From contig JAUWLW010000063.1 of assembly GCA_030613505.1 (NCBI GenBank), forward strand, positions 1 to 13,272: DNA of 13,272 nucleotides. The letters are read 5' to 3'. Numbering within the stretch: the first letter of the stretch is position 1; each line of letters starts with the position of its first letter. The stretch comes from Candidatus Zixiibacteriota bacterium. Lineage in GTDB: Bacteria; RBG-13-66-14; B26-G2; WVWN01. A model generated the notes under the pieces. It had not been told where the DNA came from and searched no databases. It saw only the letters and a list, made by a program, of their open reading frames with translations. Below, piece by piece: positions 2,262 to 10,720 of the stretch. The translations under genes and the position numbers were made by a program.

Positions 2262-5200
2262 TTATAGCGCCGTGATGGCGTCCAGCAGTTGTTCATCGGT
2301 TATGCCGGCGATATCTACCGCCGCGGACCAGCAGGCCGCGGCGCAGCTGCCGCACCCCTTGCACAGGCCGGCGTTGACCTCCGCCAACATCTTTTCCTTG
2401 TTGACCTCAATCGCGCCGTAGGGGCACACGCGCTCGCACGTCCCGCAGGCGATGCAGCGCCGCTCGTTCACGACGGCGACGCGGCCTTCGGCCTTTATCG
2501 TGGGCTTGGCGAGTATGGTCGCCGCCCGGGCGGCCGCGGCCTGCGCCTGCGCGATGGACTCCTCGATCGTCTTGGGGTTGTGCGCCAGGCCGCAGACGAA
2601 AACGCCTTCGGTCGCGAAGTCCACCGGCCTGAGTTTCATATGCGCCTCGAGGAAGAAGCCGTCCGCCGTGAGCGGGACCTTGAGCATCTCGGCCAGTTCC
2701 TTGTTGGCCTGGGCGTCGGGCCACGTCCCCTGCGCCAGCGCGACCAGGCCGACCTCGATTTCCACGTCCTCGCCCAGGATGATGTCGTACCATTTGACCT
2801 TCACTTTATCGCCCTGCGGCGCGACGGTCGGCTTGTTCTCCGGATCGAACCGCGCGAAGAAGACGCCTTTCTCGCGGGCCTCGCGGTAGAGGTCCTCGGC
2901 CTCGCCGTACGTCCGCAGGTCTCGGTAAAGTACGTAGACGTCCGCTTCGGCCTCGAGCTCTTTTAATTTAAGGGCGTTCTTTACGGCCTCGGTGCAGCAC
3001 ACGCGCGAGCAGTAGGGGTGTTCGTCGTCGCGGGAGCCGACGCACTGGATCATGACGACGCTTGCGGCGTCGTGCGGGACCTTGCCCGCGGCCAGCGCCT
3101 CCTCCAGCTCGCGCTGCGATACGACGCGGTCGCTCGAGCCGTAACCGAACTCGTCGTGCTCGGCCATCCGCGCGCCCGTCGCGACGACTACGACGCCGTG
3201 CTCGAGCTCGTGCTCGCCATTCTTATCCTCGACGACCGAGACGTAGTTGCCGACGAAGCCGGACACCGACTTGAGCTTGGCGCCGGCGAAGAGTTTTATC
3301 TTGTCGTGGCCTTTGACCTTGGCGACGAATTCGTCGAGGAACGGCCCCACTACGGCGCCGCCCGGCAGGTATTTGATGTGATGGAGGTGGCCGCCGAGCT
3401 CGTTTTCCTTTTCCACCAGATATGTCTCGAAGCCCTGGTCGGCGAGGCCGAGGGCCGCGGTCATCCCCGCGGCGCCGCCGCCCACCACCAGCGCCGTCTG
3501 CGTAACCGGCAGTTCGATGTCGGTCAGCGGCGTGAGGTTGACGGCTCGCGCGACCGCCATCCGCACCAGCTCCTTAGCCTTGGCGGTGGCCTCCGCCGGC
3601 TGCTTCATGTGGACCCACGAGCAGTGCTCGCGGATGTTGGCCATCTCGAAGAGGTAGGGGTTAAGGCCGGACTCGCGGAGGGTCTCGCGGAAGAGAGGCT
3701 CGTGCGTGCGCGGCGTGCAGGAGGCGACGACGACGCGGTTGAGGTTGTGCTCGTCGATTTTCTCGGCGATGAGCTTCTGCGTGTCCTCGGAGCAGGTGAA
3801 GAGGTTGCGCTCGGTGTACGTAACCCAGGGCAGCGTCTCGGCGTACTCGACGACGGCGGGCACGTCCACGACGCCGCCGATGTTGATGCCGCAATGGCAG
3901 ATGAAGACGCCCACGCGCGGCGGCTCGCCCTTGATGTCCCGCTCGGCCGGGAAGGAGGCCTCCGTCGTCTCCGTCCAGCGGGCCGGCGCGACGGTCGCGG
4001 AGGCCCGCGCCGCGGCCGCGGATGCCTGCGTCACCGACTCCGGGATGTCTTTTGGGCCGGCGACGGCGCCGGCGGCGAAGACGCCCGCTCGGGACGTATC
4101 CGTAGGCCGGAAGGGCGGCGACGCGACGAAGTCGTACTTATCGACTTCCAGGCCGAGCCGCTCGAGCATGGCCTTGGTATCGGCGTCGACCGTAAGGCCC
4201 ACCGAGAGCACGACCAGGTCGAACTCCTCGCGGGAGAAGGCGCCGGCCTCGTCCTCGTATTTCAAGACGAGCTTGCCGTTCTCGCGCTCGACGCTGTCGA
4301 CGCGCGAGCGGATGAAGCGGACGCCGTACTCGCTCTCGGCGCGGTCGATGTAGCGGTCGAACTCCTTGCCGAAGGACCGCATGTCCATGAAGAAGATCGT
4401 GGGCTCGACGTTGGCGTCGTGTTCCCGGGCGATGACGGCCTGCTTCGTGGCGTACATACAGCACACCGACGAGCAGTAGCCGCGATTGACGGTGGTATCC
4501 CGCGAGCCGACGCACTGCAGCCACGCGACCTTCACCGGCGCGGCGCCGTCGCTTTGGCGCTGGAGGTGGCCGCCGAACGGCCCGGAGGCCGAGAGCAGCC
4601 GTTCGAATTCGATGGAGGTTACGACGTCGCCGAGGCGGCCGTAGCCGTACTCGCTCTTGAGCGCGGCGTCGAACTCCTCGAAGCCGGGCGCCAGGACCAC
4701 GGCGCCGACCGGAATCTCTTCTATCTTCTCGACGTCGAAATGCCGGATGGCCTCCGGCTCGCAGGCCGCGACGCACTCCAAACATTCCGAGCAAAGGCCG
4801 CAGCTCAGGCAGCGCTTCGCCTCGGCGACGGCCTGCTCCTCCGTCAGGCCCAGCTCTACCTCGTCGAAGTTGCCCTCTCGTTTCGCGGGCGGGAGCTCGG
4901 CCATCTCGGCTCGAGGCGTCGGCGCGGCCTCGTCCTTGGGAACGTCCTTGGATTCGACTGCCGGAAGGGCCGACGGCTCGGGTACCGGATACTCGCCGCC
5001 GTTGAGGTAGTCGATTATGCCGCGGGCGGCGCGGCGGCCTTGCGCCATGGCCTCGGTAACCATACCCGGGCCGGTGACCATATCGCCGCCGGCGAAGACG
5101 CCGGCGCGGCCGGTCATGCCGGTCTTCTCGTCGACCTCTACGGTACGCCATTTCGTAAGGCAAATCGCCTCGTCGGCGTCGAGGTGGTCTATGGCCGGCG

Positions 5201-6704
5201 CCTGGCTTATGGCCGGGATGACCATGTCGAGCTCGACGTCGTAGGTGTCGCCCTCGATGGGGACCGGGCGCCGGCGGCCGCTCTCGTCCGGTTCGCCCAG
5301 CTCCATCCGCTGGAGGCGCATGCCGACGACGCGGCCTTCTTTACCGAAGATATCGTCGGGCGCCGTCAACAGCTCGAGACCCACGCCCTCGCGCAGCGCC
5401 TCGTCGATTTCCAATTCGTCCGCCGGCATCTCCTTCCGCGTGCGGCGGTAGAAGATCGTAACGTCGGCGCCGAGGCGCTTGGCCGTCCGCGCGGCGTCAA
5501 CGGCGGCGTTGCCCCCTCCTATTACCGCGACCTTCTTCCCGACTCGAACTTCGCCTTTCTGGTTGAACTCCCGCAGGAACTCGACGGCGCCGACGACGCC
5601 TTCCAATTCCTCGCCCTCGCAGCGGAGCTTGAGGCTTTCGTGGGCGCCGACGCCGACGAAGGCCGCCTTGTAGCCGTCCTCGAGCAGGTCGTCGAGCGTG
5701 AAGGTCTTACCCAGTTCGGCGTTGTAGTGGAACCGGATGCCGAGCTTCTCCAGGAAGCCGACGTCGCGGTCCAGCACGTCGCGGGGGAGGCGGTAGGTCG
5801 GGATGCCGACGCGCAGCATGCCGCCGGCGAACGGCAGCGCCTCGAAGATGTGGACCTCGTAGCCGGCGAAGGCGAGGTCGTGGGAGCAGGTGAGGCCCGC
5901 GGGCCCCGCGCCGACGACGGCCACGCGCTCGGCCTTCTTCTCAATTTCGTAGTCGTCGACGTACGAGTACTCCGGCTCGTTGGCGACTTCCCAGTCGGCG
6001 GCGAAGCGCTTGAGCGCGCGGATGGATACCGCCGCGTCCACCTCGCCGCGGAGGCACTCCTCCTCGCAGGGGTGATGGCACACGCGGCCGCACACGCCGG
6101 GGAGCGGGTTCTGCTTGCGGATGAGCGCGAGGGCTTCTTTAAATTTGCCCTCGGCGATGAGGGCGACGTAGCCCTGCGCCGCCTGGTCGACGGGGCAGGC
6201 GCTGCGGCACGGCGCTTTGCCGCGCTTCGTGATGGCGAAGCAGTTGGGGATGGCCTGGGCGTACGGTCGGTAGATGGCGCGCCGCTGGACCAGGCCCACC
6301 TCGTACTCGTCCGGGTACTCCACCGGGCACACGGAGACGCAGTCGGTGCAGCCGGTGCAGGCGTCGAGGTCGACGTAGCGGGCGTGGCGCCGGACGTGGG
6401 CGGTGAAGTTGCCCGCCTCGCCCTCCAGCTTCTCGAGTTCGGCCAGCGTGAGAATTTCGACGTTCTCGTGGCGGCCGGCCTCGACCAGCTTGGGCGCCAG
6501 GATGCACATCGAGCAGTCGTTGGTGGGGAAGGTCTTGTCGAGCTGGGCCATCGTCCCGCCGATGGCGGCGCCCTTCTCGACGAGGTATACCTTGACGCCG
6601 GCGTTGGCCAGGTCGAGCGCGGCCTGGATGCCGGCGACGCCGCCGCCCACCACCATCGCCGCGCCTATGGCGTTACAAGGGGTTTCGGATGAGGTGTTAA
6701 CCAT
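2262..6704 (-). CDS. hdrA: Giant HdrA: tandem HdrA cores with inserted GltD-like NADPH module
   Basis: A 1480-residue flavin/iron-sulfur protein, more than twice the usual HdrA (~650). Core 1: FAD motif VVGGGVAG (18-25), ferredoxin motif C116/C119/C122/C126. A GltD/NfnL-like module is inserted at about 165-570: Cys-rich helical domain (C166, C170, C205, C209, C213, C217), FAD site VVGAGPAG (263-270), NADPH site VIGGGNAA (394-401) with YRRTRKEMPA (419-428), typical for the 2'-phosphate. Then come cysteines 632-648, CVGSRD (731-736) and YCSSVCC (743-749). Core 2 (about 931-1480) begins with the HdrA N-terminal domain (C937, C939, C971, C996), FAD site VVGGGAAG (1073-1080), CVGSRD (1221-1226), and two 4Fe-4S motifs at 1417-1427 and 1448-1458. 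Three FADs, NADPH and several clusters suggest electron bifurcation between NADPH, ferredoxin and the HdrB substrate. The ATG at 6704 overlaps the upstream stop (TAATG) and has GAGGA upstream. The role is inferred; the family is certain. Confidence 0.95.
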   Translation of the reverse strand: MVNTSSETPCNAIGAAMVVGGGVAGIQAALDLANAGVKVYLVEKGAAIGGTMAQLDKTFPTNDCSMCILAPKLVEAGRHENVEILTLAELEKLEGEAGNFTAHVRRHARYVDLDACTGCTDCVSVCPVEYPDEYEVGLVQRRAIYRPYAQAIPNCFAITKRGKAPCRSACPVDQAAQGYVALIAEGKFKEALALIRKQNPLPGVCGRVCHHPCEEECLRGEVDAAVSIRALKRFAADWEVANEPEYSYVDDYEIEKKAERVAVVGAGPAGLTCSHDLAFAGYEVHIFEALPFAGGMLRVGIPTYRLPRDVLDRDVGFLEKLGIRFHYNAELGKTFTLDDLLEDGYKAAFVGVGAHESLKLRCEGEELEGVVGAVEFLREFNQKGEVRVGKKVAVIGGGNAAVDAARTAKRLGADVTIFYRRTRKEMPADELEIDEALREGVGLELLTAPDDIFGKEGRVVGMRLQRMELGEPDESGRRRPVPIEGDTYDVELDMVIPAISQAPAIDHLDADEAICLTKWRTVEVDEKTGMTGRAGVFAGGDMVTGPGMVTEAMAQGRRAARGIIDYLNGGEYPVPEPSALPAVESKDVPKDEAAPTPRAEMAELPPAKREGNFDEVELGLTEEQAVAEAKRCLSCGLCSECLECVAACEPEAIRHFDVEKIEEIPVGAVVLAPGFEEFDAALKSEYGYGRLGDVVTSIEFERLLSASGPFGGHLQRQSDGAAPVKVAWLQCVGSRDTTVNRGYCSSVCCMYATKQAVIAREHDANVEPTIFFMDMRSFGKEFDRYIDRAESEYGVRFIRSRVDSVERENGKLVLKYEDEAGAFSREEFDLVVLSVGLTVDADTKAMLERLGLEVDKYDFVASPPFRPTDTSRAGVFAAGAVAGPKDIPESVTQASAAAARASATVAPARWTETTEASFPAERDIKGEPPRVGVFICHCGINIGGVVDVPAVVEYAETLPWVTYTERNLFTCSEDTQKLIAEKIDEHNLNRVVVASCTPRTHEPLFRETLRESGLNPYLFEMANIREHCSWVHMKQPAEATAKAKELVRMAVARAVNLTPLTDIELPVTQTALVVGGGAAGMTAALGLADQGFETYLVEKENELGGHLHHIKYLPGGAVVGPFLDEFVAKVKGHDKIKLFAGAKLKSVSGFVGNYVSVVEDKNGEHELEHGVVVVATGARMAEHDEFGYGSSDRVVSQRELEEALAAGKVPHDAASVVMIQCVGSRDDEHPYCSRVCCTEAVKNALKLKELEAEADVYVLYRDLRTYGEAEDLYREAREKGVFFARFDPENKPTVAPQGDKVKVKWYDIILGEDVEIEVGLVALAQGTWPDAQANKELAEMLKVPLTADGFFLEAHMKLRPVDFATEGVFVCGLAHNPKTIEESIAQAQAAAARAATILAKPTIKAEGRVAVVNERRCIACGTCERVCPYGAIEVNKEKMLAEVNAGLCKGCGSCAAACWSAAVDIAGITDEQLLDAITAL

Positions 6705-7066
6705 TATTCCTCGCCGCGGATGCGGATGCGAGCTTCCTCTACGATCCAGATTTCGCCGGCGGGGGGTTCTTTATCCAAACGCGGTATCAATCCTCGGACG
6801 TTATTAATAACGTAATCTTTATCTTGCTTCGCGTAGCGGAGGACTATTATACCGGCGTGGGTGCCCGGCGGGTATTCCCTTATATCAGCAAACGACAAGT
6901 CCAACGTGACTAAAATTAAACCCTCGGTCCGGCAAAACGAAAAAACCTCTGCGTCGGACTTTCCGCCCAACCCTTCCCCGATTACCGTTTCGGCGGCGTG
7001 CCCGGCGGCGATGAATAACGCCGTTAAGTCCGCGGGTAGGTTTTCGTCCAACTTCAAACGCGTCAA
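6704..7066 (-). CDS. DUF5615 PIN-like protein, putative toxin
   Basis: A 120-residue protein of the DUF5615 PIN-like type, the usual partner of DUF433 in toxin-antitoxin-type pairs and thought to be a ribonuclease. Visible motifs are LDENLP near the N-terminus (D7, E8), GGKSDAEV (D38) and LVTLDLSFADIREYPPG (D56, D61), followed by GIIVLR. Family members commonly read DxDF at the third motif; here it is DLSF, so one acidic residue is replaced by S58. It starts with TTG at 7066, behind GGGAG in the tail of the DUF433 gene, so the pair is coupled. Its stop overlaps the hdrA start by one base, and the hdrA ribosome site lies inside its last codons. Base composition is AT-richer than in the hdr genes, which suggests separate origin. 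No toxin activity can be shown from sequence. Confidence 0.85.
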   Translation of the reverse strand: MTRLKLDENLPADLTALFIAAGHAAETVIGEGLGGKSDAEVFSFCRTEGLILVTLDLSFADIREYPPGTHAGIIVLRYAKQDKDYVINNVRGLIPRLDKEPPAGEIWIVEEARIRIRGEE

Positions 7067-7069
7067 CTT

Positions 7070-7315
<246 letters not shown>

Positions 7316-7326
7316 TTACAGCGTTC

Positions 7327-7407
7327 CTAAGCCACCGGATCGGCGACGCCGCCGCCCACCACCATCGCGGCCCCTACGACGCCTTTACATTTATTTTCGG
7401 AGGCCAT
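7327..7407 (-). pseudogene. hdrA 5'-end remnant (22 codons of homology)
   Basis: Read on the minus strand from the ATG at 7407, this gives MASENKCKGVVGAAMVVGGG followed by VADPVA and a TAG. The complete hdrA begins MVNTSSETPCNAIGAAMVVG and continues GGVAGIQ, so the first FAD motif is shared in the same frame. A perfect 28-nt match links 7341-7368 with 6632-6659; homology fades on both sides. After GVA the remnant leaves the HdrA sequence and stops within five codons. It is therefore a truncated second 5' end of a hdrA gene, not a working enzyme. The differing first 11 codons argue for a divergent hdrA source rather than a fresh duplication. A leader-peptide role for the 26-residue product is possible but unsupported; no clear ribosome site precedes it. 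Confidence 0.8.
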
Positions 7408-7414
7408 TTCGACA

Positions 7415-7834
7415 CTAATCTTTAATTGGTATGGGTTTCGTGTTTATGCTTTCTAACGTCTTTATATATTCTTTGGGTAAACCGTGGGCCTTTGCTCCGC
7501 CAATAATGAGTTTGAGATACCATTCGTACGGCGGTTCCCCCGTTTTATGGTCCGATTGATAAGTTAGGACTTTTTCTGTCGAACCGTCTTCCAAATTTAC
7601 CCGTAAACCTTCTACGGGCTTGTATTTACCTTCTTTATCGTTCAATAGTTTCCTCTCAGCCTCGTCGATCTCGTATACTACGCCTCGCACAATACCTTTT
7701 TCGCTTTTTTCTATGTTGGCCTTCGCGGAACCGTCTTCGCTTTTCTTGTTGAATACGAGTTTCCATCCCTTCAGCTCGGCTCGGTATAGAAATCGGCCCG
7801 AGTCGATATCGCGTTTGAGCCAACATGCGCACAT
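7415..7834 (-). CDS. Gamma-glutamylcyclotransferase-like protein, start codon lost
   Basis: From the ATG at 7834 this encodes 139 residues of the GGCT/AIG2-like fold, seen in SGRFLYRAELKGWKLVF (12-28), IVRGVVYEIDEAERKLL (48-64), DKEGKYKPVEGLRV (66-79, with the expected catalytic glutamate E68) and VLTYQ (89-93). The family removes gamma-glutamyl groups as 5-oxoproline or acts in related ways. The essential substrate-loop motif FAYGSN is encoded in frame just upstream of this ATG (7869-7835 region), preceded by codons for V-A-T-F-K-H beginning with GTA at 7870. No ATG, GTG, TTG or CTG lies in that frame before a stop inside hdrB, although GAGGAGGAG sits right before the GTA. The gene is either broken or uses an unusual start. 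It is AT-richer than the hdr genes and lies in the hdrB-hdrA junction, suggesting acquisition. Confidence 0.7.
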   Translation of the reverse strand: MCACWLKRDIDSGRFLYRAELKGWKLVFNKKSEDGSAKANIEKSEKGIVRGVVYEIDEAERKLLNDKEGKYKPVEGLRVNLEDGSTEKVLTYQSDHKTGEPPYEWYLKLIIGGAKAHGLPKEYIKTLESINTKPIPIKD

Positions 7835-7884: not shown

Positions 7885-8769
7885 TTAAGGCTCCGCGAAC
7901 GCTGCTATCAACTTCTCACACTTGTTCTTGGCTAGCTTGAGCTGCATATCTTTGGCCGAAAGGCCGAGGGCGAGGCCCAGCACCTGCGGCAGGAAGAGGA
8001 CCGGAAGGTCGAGCTCCTGCTCGATGTGGGCGGCTATTTTTTTCTGGTTGTCGTCGTACATCACGGCGCAGAACGGGCAGACGAGGACGACGGCGTCCGA
8101 GCCGGCGGCCTTGACGCGCGACAGCTTCTCGCCGGCCATGGCGAGAGAGATGTCCGCGTCGATGCCCAACAGCGCGCCGCCGCAGCACTTCTTGTATTCG
8201 GCGTACTCTACGACCTCGGCCCCCGTCGCCCGCAGCAGCTCGCCGATGGAATGGGGCGCCTCCGGGTCCTCGGCGTCGTGGAAGGCCCAGGAGGGTTTGA
8301 GGTAGTGGCAGCCGTAGTGGACGGCGAAGCGGAAGTCGGCCAGCGGCGCGACGACCTTTTCCTTAATCGCCTCCGGCCCGATCTCCTCGTAGAGCCACCG
8401 CGCGAAGTGGCGGACCCGCGGCGGCCTCTCGACCTTACGATTCACCTTGGCGAGCTTCTCGTTGACCTTTTTGCGTAGGTCGTCGTCCTCGGCCAGCTCC
8501 TCCGCCGTCTCGGCCAGGACCGACGCGCAGCTCGAGCACAGCGCCAGGACCTCCAGCCCCGCCTCCTCCGCGACGGCCAGGTTGCGCGCGGCCAACAGCA
8601 GCGTCCCCTCCCGCGTCGCCGACTTGATGGGGAAGCCGCAGCAGGCGAAGTCCTGCTGGGGCTCGAGCTCGGCGCCGAAGAGGCGCGCGACCTCGACGGC
8701 CGACTTCTCGTATTGGCGGCCGCGCAGCGGGATGGTGCAGCCGAGGAAGAGAGCGTACTTGTTTTCCAT
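7885..8769 (-). CDS. hdrB: HdrB, CCG-domain heterodisulfide reductase subunit
   Basis: A 294-residue protein with two complete CCG domains: C11, C43-C44, C78, C81 and C154, C195-C196, C231, C234. In known HdrB these hold two noncubane [4Fe-4S] clusters that reduce the disulfide substrate. The length is normal and no cysteine is missing, so catalysis is expected. The natural substrate in a bacterium without coenzyme M/B is unknown; a small-molecule or protein disulfide is possible. The gene follows hdrC by 11 nt. The ATG at 8769 is the only start that keeps the LGCTIPLR motif at the usual distance from the N-terminus. The ribosome site is weak, which suggests coupling to hdrC. The last codons overlap nothing, and the cyclotransferase-like frame begins 15 nt after the stop. 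Confidence 0.95.
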   Translation of the reverse strand: MENKYALFLGCTIPLRGRQYEKSAVEVARLFGAELEPQQDFACCGFPIKSATREGTLLLAARNLAVAEEAGLEVLALCSSCASVLAETAEELAEDDDLRKKVNEKLAKVNRKVERPPRVRHFARWLYEEIGPEAIKEKVVAPLADFRFAVHYGCHYLKPSWAFHDAEDPEAPHSIGELLRATGAEVVEYAEYKKCCGGALLGIDADISLAMAGEKLSRVKAAGSDAVVLVCPFCAVMYDDNQKKIAAHIEQELDLPVLFLPQVLGLALGLSAKDMQLKLAKNKCEKLIAAFAEP

Positions 8770-8780
8770 AGATTAGAGCG

Positions 8781-9245
8781 TTACGATTCTTCCAGCAACT
8801 TGCCCACCTCGTCGCAGGTGGTCTTGAGCTCGGCGAGGCCCATCTTGGCGCGCTTCTTGTTGTCGAACTCCTCCAGCTCGTACAGGCGGCCGAACTGCTT
8901 GAGGAGCTCGAGCTGGGTCACGTACGCCGGGTGGAGCTTGCCCTCGCGCGCGGCGATATTCTTCACCGCGGTGATTATCTCGGCGAAGGAGACGTCCTGC
9001 GGGCAGCGCTCCTCGCACGAGTAGCACGTCGAGCACAACCAGATGAAATCCGACTCCAGGACGCGGTCGCGCAGGCCCAGGAGGATCATACGGATTATCT
9101 TGCGAGGGTTGTAGCGCTCGTCGATGGCGCGGACGGGGCAGGCCGCGGTGCAGGTGCCGCAAGCGAAGCAGTACTTTATGGCTTCGCCGCCCGGCTCCGC
9201 GGCGACCTCGTGTTTGAAGTTGGGGTCGGTTTTGGATATGGTCAT
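8781..9245 (-). CDS. hdrC: HdrC, 2x[4Fe-4S] heterodisulfide reductase subunit
   Basis: A 154-residue ferredoxin-like subunit. Two classic motifs bind [4Fe-4S] clusters: C26/C29/C32/C36-P and C71/C74/C77/C81-P. HdrC relays electrons from HdrA to HdrB; its gene precedes hdrB as in many bacteria. The start at 9245 gives MTISKTDPNF. The frame stays open upstream to 9530, but that part is arginine/proline-rich, crosses the promoter and terminator, and has no HdrC similarity, so I reject it. The ribosome site before 9245 is poor. The gene sits 27 nt downstream of an intrinsic terminator on its own strand, so its transcription from the promoter at 9414-9442 must pass that signal. Confidence 0.92.
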   Translation of the reverse strand: MTISKTDPNFKHEVAAEPGGEAIKYCFACGTCTAACPVRAIDERYNPRKIIRMILLGLRDRVLESDFIWLCSTCYSCEERCPQDVSFAEIITAVKNIAAREGKLHPAYVTQLELLKQFGRLYELEEFDNKKRAKMGLAELKTTCDEVGKLLEES

Positions 9246-9271
9246 CGTTCGTAACGTAAACGGAGTGGGAC

Positions 9272-9304
9272 AAAAAAGCCCACGCCCCGTTAAGGGGTAT
9301 GGGC
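9272..9304 (-). terminator. Intrinsic terminator upstream of hdrC (possible attenuator)
   Basis: On the minus strand GCCCA-TA-CCCC, loop TTAAC, GGGG-CG-TGGGC form a stem of nine Watson-Crick pairs plus one wobble and one mismatch, followed by six T. No other minus-strand gene ends here, since the next gene upstream is divergent. It therefore ends either a small RNA or a regulated leader of hdrC. Confidence 0.72.
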
Positions 9305-9407
9305 CTAAGCAAGCGGCGGTACGCTCGGGCAAGGAGCAGGTGGAAAGGGCAGGCGCGAACTTCAGGCCGTCGCGTCGGCCGGCGCTCCGCCTAGGAAGCG
9401 GCAACGC
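9272..9407 (-). ncRNA. Candidate ~135-nt structured leader RNA or sRNA
   Basis: The segment runs from the start site predicted for the promoter at 9414-9442 to the terminator at 9272-9304. It holds no ATG on the minus strand. A closing helix is possible between 9391-9382 and 9324-9315 (nine pairs, one A-A mismatch). Inside it GGCCG and CGGCC (9380-9376 with 9369-9365) form a perfect hairpin with a 6-nt loop. The rest is a pyrimidine-rich stretch (9353-9330) with CCACCU and CUCCUU, complementary to Shine-Dalgarno sites. I do not recognise a known riboswitch, 6S, SRP or tmRNA. High GC makes chance pairing easy, so the structure is tentative. Confidence 0.4.
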
Positions 9408-9413
9408 TCGTAA

Positions 9414-9442
9414 AATGTAAGATAACCGCGGCGGGGTGTCAA
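9414..9442 (-). promoter_or_regulatory. Sigma70-type promoter of the hdr operon
   Basis: On the minus strand TTGACA (9442-9437) is followed after exactly 17 nt by TACATT (9419-9414). The -35 box is perfect and the -10 box matches 4 of 6. The expected start is near 9407. It is the best minus-strand promoter seen and is placed correctly for hdrC-hdrB and the genes behind them. Confidence 0.65.
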
Positions 9443-9489
9443 GTGAAATCCTACACAAAGTCCGCGTTTTTTTAAGGCAACGCTGGATT

Positions 9490-9601: not shown

Positions 9602-10720
9602 ATGGATATCGGAATCCCCAAAGAGCAGACGTCGGCGGAGACGCGCGTGGCGGTGACGCCCATGGGCGCGTACGCGTATACGCGGGAAGGCCATCGCGTC
9701 TTCGTGGAGACGAAGGCCGGCGCCGACGCCGGTTTTACGGACGAGGAATACGAGAAGGCCGGCGCGACGGTCGTCTTCTCGCCGCAGGAGGTCTACGGCC
9801 GAGCCGAAGTCGTGGCCAAGGTGCAGCCGCCCGCCGTCGACGAGATAGCGTTGATGAACGAGGGGGCCGTCGTCTTCAGCGCCATTCAGCTCGGCGCCCA
9901 GGTGGACGAGGCCGTGCGGGCGATGTTGGACAAGAAGGTCGTGGCCATCGGCTACGAGATCTTGGAGGACGAGCGCGGCGAGTTCCCGGTGATGAAGATA
10001 ATATCGGAGCTGGTGGGCCACATGGCGCCCAGCATCGCCGGCCGCTACCTGTCCCATTACGAGGGGGGGCGCGGCGTCGCCCTCGCCAACCTCCCCGGCA
10101 TACCGCCGGTGGCGGTGGCCATCGTAGGCGCCGGCAACGTGGGGACCACGGCGGCGAAGTCCTTCGCCGCCCTGGGCGTCCAAACCCACCTCTTCGACCG
10201 CGCGGTCGCCAATTTAAGACGGGGCGAGGCCGTGGTGCCGGCTGTCATCACCCACATGGCGGAGGCTCCCAATATAGCCCGGGCGTGCGAGTACGCCGAC
10301 GTCGTCATAACCGCGGCCTACGTCCACGGCGACAGGCCGCCCATGCTGGTTACGGAGGAGATGGTCCGTTCGATGAAGGCGGGCGCCGTCCTGATGGATA
10401 TCGCCATCGACCAGGGCGGCTGCGTCGAGACCAGCCGGCCCACGAGCCACGCCGACCCAGTGTTCGAGAAATTCGGCGTCACCCACTATTGCGTGCCCAA
10501 CATCGCCTCCGCGGTGCCGCGCACCTGCTCGTACGCGTTCAATAACAACCTCAAGGAATATTTGGCCGAAGTGGCGGCGTCGGGCGTGGCGGAGGCGGCG
10601 CGTCGGAAGGCGGGTTTGCGTAAAGGGATATACTACCACGGCGGCGTCTGCACCCATCCCCGCCTGTGCGATCTATTCAGTCTCGAGTATACGCCCATCG
10701 ACGAAATTATCGGCGGCTAA
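9602..10720 (+). CDS. Alanine dehydrogenase-family protein, catalytic His replaced by Gln
   Basis: A 372-residue protein, the normal length for Ald, which interconverts L-alanine and pyruvate with NAD. Visible family marks are IPKE (5-8), R15 in TRVAVTP, K73 in VAKVQPP, the Rossmann motif VGAGNVG (175-181) with D199 in HLFDR, and MDIAIDQGGCVETSRPT (265-281) with D270. In Ald the position after TYL is a catalytic histidine (H96 in the Mycobacterium enzyme); here it is Q96 in SAIQLG. The other three active-site residues are in place. The substrate or mechanism may therefore differ. The C-terminus carries an added HGGVCTHPRLCDLF stretch. Start 9602 was chosen for the IGIPKE N-terminus and the GGGAGGAG site; an upstream ATG at 9521 lies in the promoter. 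It is first in an operon with a CoA-transferase. PntA-like alternatives are less likely. Confidence 0.88.
   Translation: MDIGIPKEQTSAETRVAVTPMGAYAYTREGHRVFVETKAGADAGFTDEEYEKAGATVVFSPQEVYGRAEVVAKVQPPAVDEIALMNEGAVVFSAIQLGAQVDEAVRAMLDKKVVAIGYEILEDERGEFPVMKIISELVGHMAPSIAGRYLSHYEGGRGVALANLPGIPPVAVAIVGAGNVGTTAAKSFAALGVQTHLFDRAVANLRRGEAVVPAVITHMAEAPNIARACEYADVVITAAYVHGDRPPMLVTEEMVRSMKAGAVLMDIAIDQGGCVETSRPTSHADPVFEKFGVTHYCVPNIASAVPRTCSYAFNNNLKEYLAEVAASGVAEAARRKAGLRKGIYYHGGVCTHPRLCDLFSLEYTPIDEIIGG

Follow-up and report, generated by a model that had tools for sequence, protein, structure and literature searches.

The hdrC gene in the genome studied here is preceded by a promoter and an intrinsic terminator, and the locus raises the question of what the segment lying between them does. 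The window (the whole stretch of DNA analysed, 13,272 nucleotides) contains the hdr genes listed in Table 1 together with the other features discussed below. An earlier note on this DNA had described the promoter, a segment of about 135 nt and the terminator, and all three were confirmed. It had also held that transcription must read through the terminator to reach hdrC. This stands, since hdrC starts 26 nt past the terminator T-run and ald is divergent, so that no gene upstream needs the terminator. The comparison covered all four genomes of the genus in the set, namely that of the window (G000) and G001, G002 and G003, all of Candidatus Coatesbacteria; G004, from the same order as the window's genus, was compared as well. 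A search with HdrC found homologues 94% identical in Candidatus Coatesbacteria bin961 (CP070633) and in A-C077, the latter labelled Zixiibacteriota; matched by position, these two are G002 and G003.

Table 1. Coordinates of the features of the hdr leader and the adjoining genes in the window.
Feature	Position	Strand	Remarks
hdrA2-like gene	2262..6704	-	Carries a GltD-like NAD(P)-binding module
hdrB	7885..8769	-	Downstream gene; TIGR03288, E 3e-72, under the family cut-off; Pfam CCG domains
hdrC	8781..9245	-	First gene of the operon, ATG 9245; TIGR03290, E 5.8e-36, under the family cut-off
Possible read-through helix GUGGG/CCCAC around the T-run	9265..9283	-	Tentative, predicted
Intrinsic terminator	9272..9305	-	Stem 9305-9277, T-run (T6) 9277-9272; first four bases are the P1 3′ strand
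Antiterminator / aptamer-like domain (predicted)	9302..9380	-	Same unconstrained predicted fold in 4/4 genomes
Predicted helix P1	9380-9377/9305-9302	-	3′ strand (9305-9302) shared with the base of the terminator stem
Predicted helix P2	9373-9366/9317-9309	-	
Predicted helix P3	9360-9353/9330-9323	-	
5′ hairpin at the transcript start	9382..9407	-	Predicted fold, different stem bases in three genus members
Sigma-70-type promoter TTGACA-17-TACATT	9414..9442	-	-35 TTGACA 9442-9437, 17 nt, -10 TACATT 9419-9414; kept in 4/4 genus members; expected start ~9409
Candidate Rex-like (or CRP-like) operator TTTGTGTAGGATTTCACTTG	9440..9459	-	Overlaps the -35
Divergent ald promoter TTGACC-17-TATAAA	9521..9549	+	From sequence; core kept in 4/4 genomes; ald starts at 9602

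The operon itself varies among the relatives. HdrA of the window is a 1480 aa protein with a match to PRK12771 at residues 161–662, which constitutes the GltD-like module and suggests NAD(P)H as the electron partner. Between hdrB and hdrA (window 6704–7834) an AIG2-like gene, a small ORF and a DUF5615 gene are inserted; the last two look like a toxin–antitoxin pair. In G001, hdrB is followed by two other small ORFs of unknown type, and in G002 and G003 an HdrA-like gene lies directly 3′ of hdrB. Judged by eye, hdrCB of G003 is followed (L041:3899–5449) by the N-terminal part of HdrA and then by NuoE-like and NuoF-like proteins, so the composition of this operon looks different from that of the window. 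No Shine–Dalgarno sequence is visible before the hdrC ATG (window 9250–9245) or before hdrB (8769), unlike the ald and transketolase genes, which have one.

By base composition, the two boundaries of the segment are unexceptional. Promoter-like matches number 2 against 2.4 expected, which is not remarkable alone, and terminators of −18 kcal/mol or better occur in 9 of 30 shuffled windows, again near chance level alone. Both elements are considered real because they are conserved: the promoter, a 79-nt domain and the terminator are syntenic upstream of hdrC in all four genomes of the genus, with the ald start codon on the opposite side. The distance from TTGACA to the ATG is 197, 194, 196 and 197 nt in the four genomes, and the −10 element reads TACATT, TAGATT, TAAATT or TAAAAT. 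Identity to the window (G001/G002/G003) is 100/97/97% for the upstream box with the −35, 92/84/74% for the 79-nt domain and 91/80/83% for the terminator; it is 61/62/64% for the post-terminator UTR, 69/39/56% for the upstream spacer and 74/73/79% for the four-fold sites of hdrC. In its most distant copy, the domain is conserved no better than synonymous sites and above the flanking noncoding DNA. The terminator stem, GGCCCAU-a-CCCC/GGGG-c-GUGGGCU (−19.5 kcal/mol), leads into the run of six T; 26 of its 35 alignment columns are invariant, the loop varies and the T-run is kept, and the terminator has a z of −3.4.

The 79-nt domain is predicted to form an extended stem composed of helices P1, P2 and P3. 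The four RNAs share one common fold when the terminator 3′ arm is held unpaired, and the segment alone folds into the same stem without constraint in each of the four genomes. P1 pairs GGCC with GGCC and is followed by a 3×3 loop GAC/UUA (CAA in G002); P2 is GCGACGGC/GCCG-b-UUGC, followed by a variable loop, and P3 is GUUCG-c-GC/GC-c-CGAGC, closed by an apical loop. The RNAalifold energy of the domain is −49.2 against −36.1 ± 3.7 for column shuffles (z −3.5; none of 1000 as stable). The antisense strand is weaker (z −2.5), and windows upstream of the leader range from z −1.1 to 1.0. Of the P1–P3 pair cells, 97.4% are standard, with two single-sided changes and no double (compensatory) change among the four closely related sequences; P1–P3 thus shows stability and conservation, but covariation proof is absent. 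Taken in full, the 138-nt RNA of the window is not more stable than its shuffled versions (z −0.69). The closing helix proposed in the earlier note, 9391–9382/9324–9315 (GGCGGAGCGC/GCGUACCGCC), is broken on inspection in G001 and G003, at least two of the three relatives. A shorter antiterminator, GGCCU(g)AAG/CUUAGGCC, was rejected, as it is present only in G000 and G001.

The 3′ strand of P1 is at the same time the first four bases of the terminator 5′ arm, so the stem and the terminator are mutually exclusive. Folding of the growing chain was calculated as an equilibrium at each length, not as kinetics. In these calculations the probability of P1 is 0.8–1.0 in G000, G002 and G003 and 0.4–0.8 in G001 until the terminator 3′ arm emerges; it then falls to near zero within 2–3 nt as the terminator base forms. 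Such a course is what one would expect if an antiterminator depended on stabilisation from outside. A tentative helix around the T-run appears in the P1-forced and minimum-energy folds of the extended G000 transcript, with partial counterparts in some relatives.

The reading that best accounts for these data, with a probability of roughly 0.63, is a cis-acting transcription attenuator in the hdrCBA 5′ leader, in which an antiterminator domain provides an ON switch. The terminator stands after the promoter and ahead of hdrC, with which the operon begins, and the conserved fold predicted as its alternative would exclude it, though compensatory double changes are lacking. RNA polymerase would start at about 9409, and the domain would fold into the long P1–P2–P3 stem as it emerges. 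Upon emergence of the terminator 3′ arm, P1 would be displaced, because its 3′ GGCC strand doubles as the base of that hairpin, and transcription would stop at 9272. If P1–P3 were stabilised, whether by a ligand, by a protein or by pausing of the polymerase, the terminator base would be blocked and the polymerase would read through into hdrC; in such a switch, P1 and the terminator would compete directly. We infer transcription, termination, control of read-through and the direction of the switch from conservation, the shared predicted fold, the terminator overlap and the operon geometry. The leader probably determines the amount of enzyme produced. The reading is weakened by the small sample of four closely related sequences with no P1–P3 pair changed on both sides, by the length of P1 (only 4 bp) and by single-sequence comparisons with dinucleotide shuffles, where the excess stability of P1–P3 is clear only in G003 (z −4.5; the other three near −1). 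The fold obtained from G003 alone also counts against it, fitting 17–19 of its 29 pairs in the other genomes, compared with 7–13 for slid versions.

The missing double changes would also suit a fixed leaky terminator giving constant low hdr expression, with the P1–P3 fold incidental or serving only to stabilise the mRNA, a role for which a 5′ hairpin at the transcript start would be appropriate. This alternative is unlikely: it leaves unexplained a fold that is common to all four genomes and much more stable than shuffled columns, and addition of the P1 3′ strand, the very part that overlaps the terminator, strengthens the signal from z −1.9 to −3.5.

The earlier note had left the choice between an attenuated leader or riboswitch and a small RNA. 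The conserved alternative fold sharing the terminator 5′ arm favours the attenuated leader, and a separate sRNA is less economical. A stand-alone trans-acting sRNA of about 135 nt, with hdr transcribed by leaky read-through, would have its own promoter, a 5′ hairpin, a structured body and a strong terminator, and would be present, as the segment is, in one copy per genome. However, hdrC shows no other promoter, the P1/terminator overlap would have no role, and the exposed pyrimidine stretch (CCACCU/CUCCUU), the candidate single-stranded region, is not conserved and is absent in G003. Together with the arrangement in G004, in which a similar promoter serves hdrC directly, this makes the sRNA unlikely. 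Translation-coupled control, by a leader peptide or by translation of the leader as an N-terminal extension of HdrC, is very improbable. In its favour, G000–G002 keep an open frame ahead of hdrC through most of the leader, and hdrC has no Shine–Dalgarno sequence. In G003, however, that frame is shifted or interrupted by a stop, homologues begin at the annotated hdrC ATG, the four genomes hold no conserved short ORF with a ribosome-binding site before the terminator, and the TTG and GTG codons that do occur in the segment, which the earlier note had described as free of ORF starts, include none that all four genomes share or that a Shine–Dalgarno sequence precedes.

G004 has a promoter with the same ACTTGACAC core, the same GAGCG start and the same 5′ hairpin directly before hdrC, with no terminator. 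This arrangement suggests that the leader promoter belongs to hdr, and the terminator-less leader suggests that the attenuator is specific to the genus. The 5′ hairpin is predicted in the minimum-energy folds of G000 and G001 and in the antiterminator fold of G002; it lies at the same place in G004, is weak in G003 and is not significant against alignment shuffles (z −0.25). The hairpin predicted in the G004 hdrC leader (L007:1391–1497) pairs bases just 5′ of the ATG and possibly acts in translational control.

Control of initiation is probably a separate matter, exerted by Rex at the candidate operator over the −35. The box around this operator and the −35 has 27 of 29 columns invariant in the four genus genomes. 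The Staphylococcus aureus Rex consensus is TTGTGAAW4TTCACAA (PMC2883068), and the hdr site fits it at 11 of the 14 specified bases. A consensus-like site at a promoter is thus accompanied by a rex gene in the genome, and rex was found in all five genomes checked. A CRP-family protein, encoded in all four genus members, is an alternative candidate binder. The transketolase promoter of G000, G001 and G003 carries a box that differs from TTTGTGTAGGATTTCACTTG by three mismatches at most, and the palindrome TGTGAAATGTTTCACA precedes a second hdrC–hdrB operon, being perfect in G000 and keeping the inner GTGAAAT-N-TTTCAC arms in G001 and G003. The hdr leader promoter, the transketolase promoter and the second hdrC–hdrB operon are therefore candidates for a small redox regulon.

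A more specific proposal, which we regard as unlikely, is that P1–P3 serves as the aptamer of a riboswitch class not yet described and confined to this Coatesbacteria genus, which would sense an Hdr-linked metabolite (e.g., a redox cofactor) and switch on the operon, acting in series with Rex, which would control the same promoter. The single copy counts against the attenuator reading, being unusual for a metabolite riboswitch. When the domain was searched for with a covariance model, the four known copies came out at E 5e-18 or better; further matches in the same genomes or phylum are weak (E 0.03 or worse), no second copy beyond the four known occurs at E 0.01 among 242 genomes, and the loci of hdrC relatives searched in other phyla give no match. 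The earlier note recognised no known class, and the scan agrees with it: none of the Rfam 15 families matches the window at the gathering threshold, and relaxed thresholds yield only weak matches at chance level, to families of other kinds in the region of the window and, in three relatives, to one miRNA family. At the level of titles and abstracts, the literature offered no relevant precedent for an hdr riboswitch or a Coatesbacteria riboswitch.

The attenuator layout is known in principle, and the hdr leader RNA matches no described family. If the switch is confirmed, an uncultured phylum would have an electron-transfer operon of the heterodisulfide-reductase type governed by its leader RNA, with control at two levels: a Rex-like (NADH/NAD+) operator at initiation and an RNA switch at elongation. 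Antiterminators of ANTAR proteins consist of two hairpins with hexaloops bearing A1 and G4. A hairpin with a six-base loop can likewise form beside the hdr terminator, but on inspection of the fold its loop, UACCGC, lacks the A1/G4 signature and has no matching second hexaloop. RAT antiterminators of the LicT/BglG type are stems of about 30 nt with internal loops that share bases with the terminator 5′ arm and occur in sugar-uptake operons. The hdr antiterminator stem also shares bases with the terminator 5′ arm and has internal loops; unlike RAT, the domain is about 79 nt long and the operon is not one of sugar uptake. The Bacillus subtilis pbuE adenine riboswitch is of the ON type, and its P1 competes with the terminator (folding analysis in PMC3280964). 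The hdr leader has no Rfam purine riboswitch match and forms one extended stem in place of the three-way junction of pbuE. As in pbuE, P1 of the putative sensing domain is predicted to form early and the terminator to take over as the chain grows, and stabilised P1 would lead to read-through.
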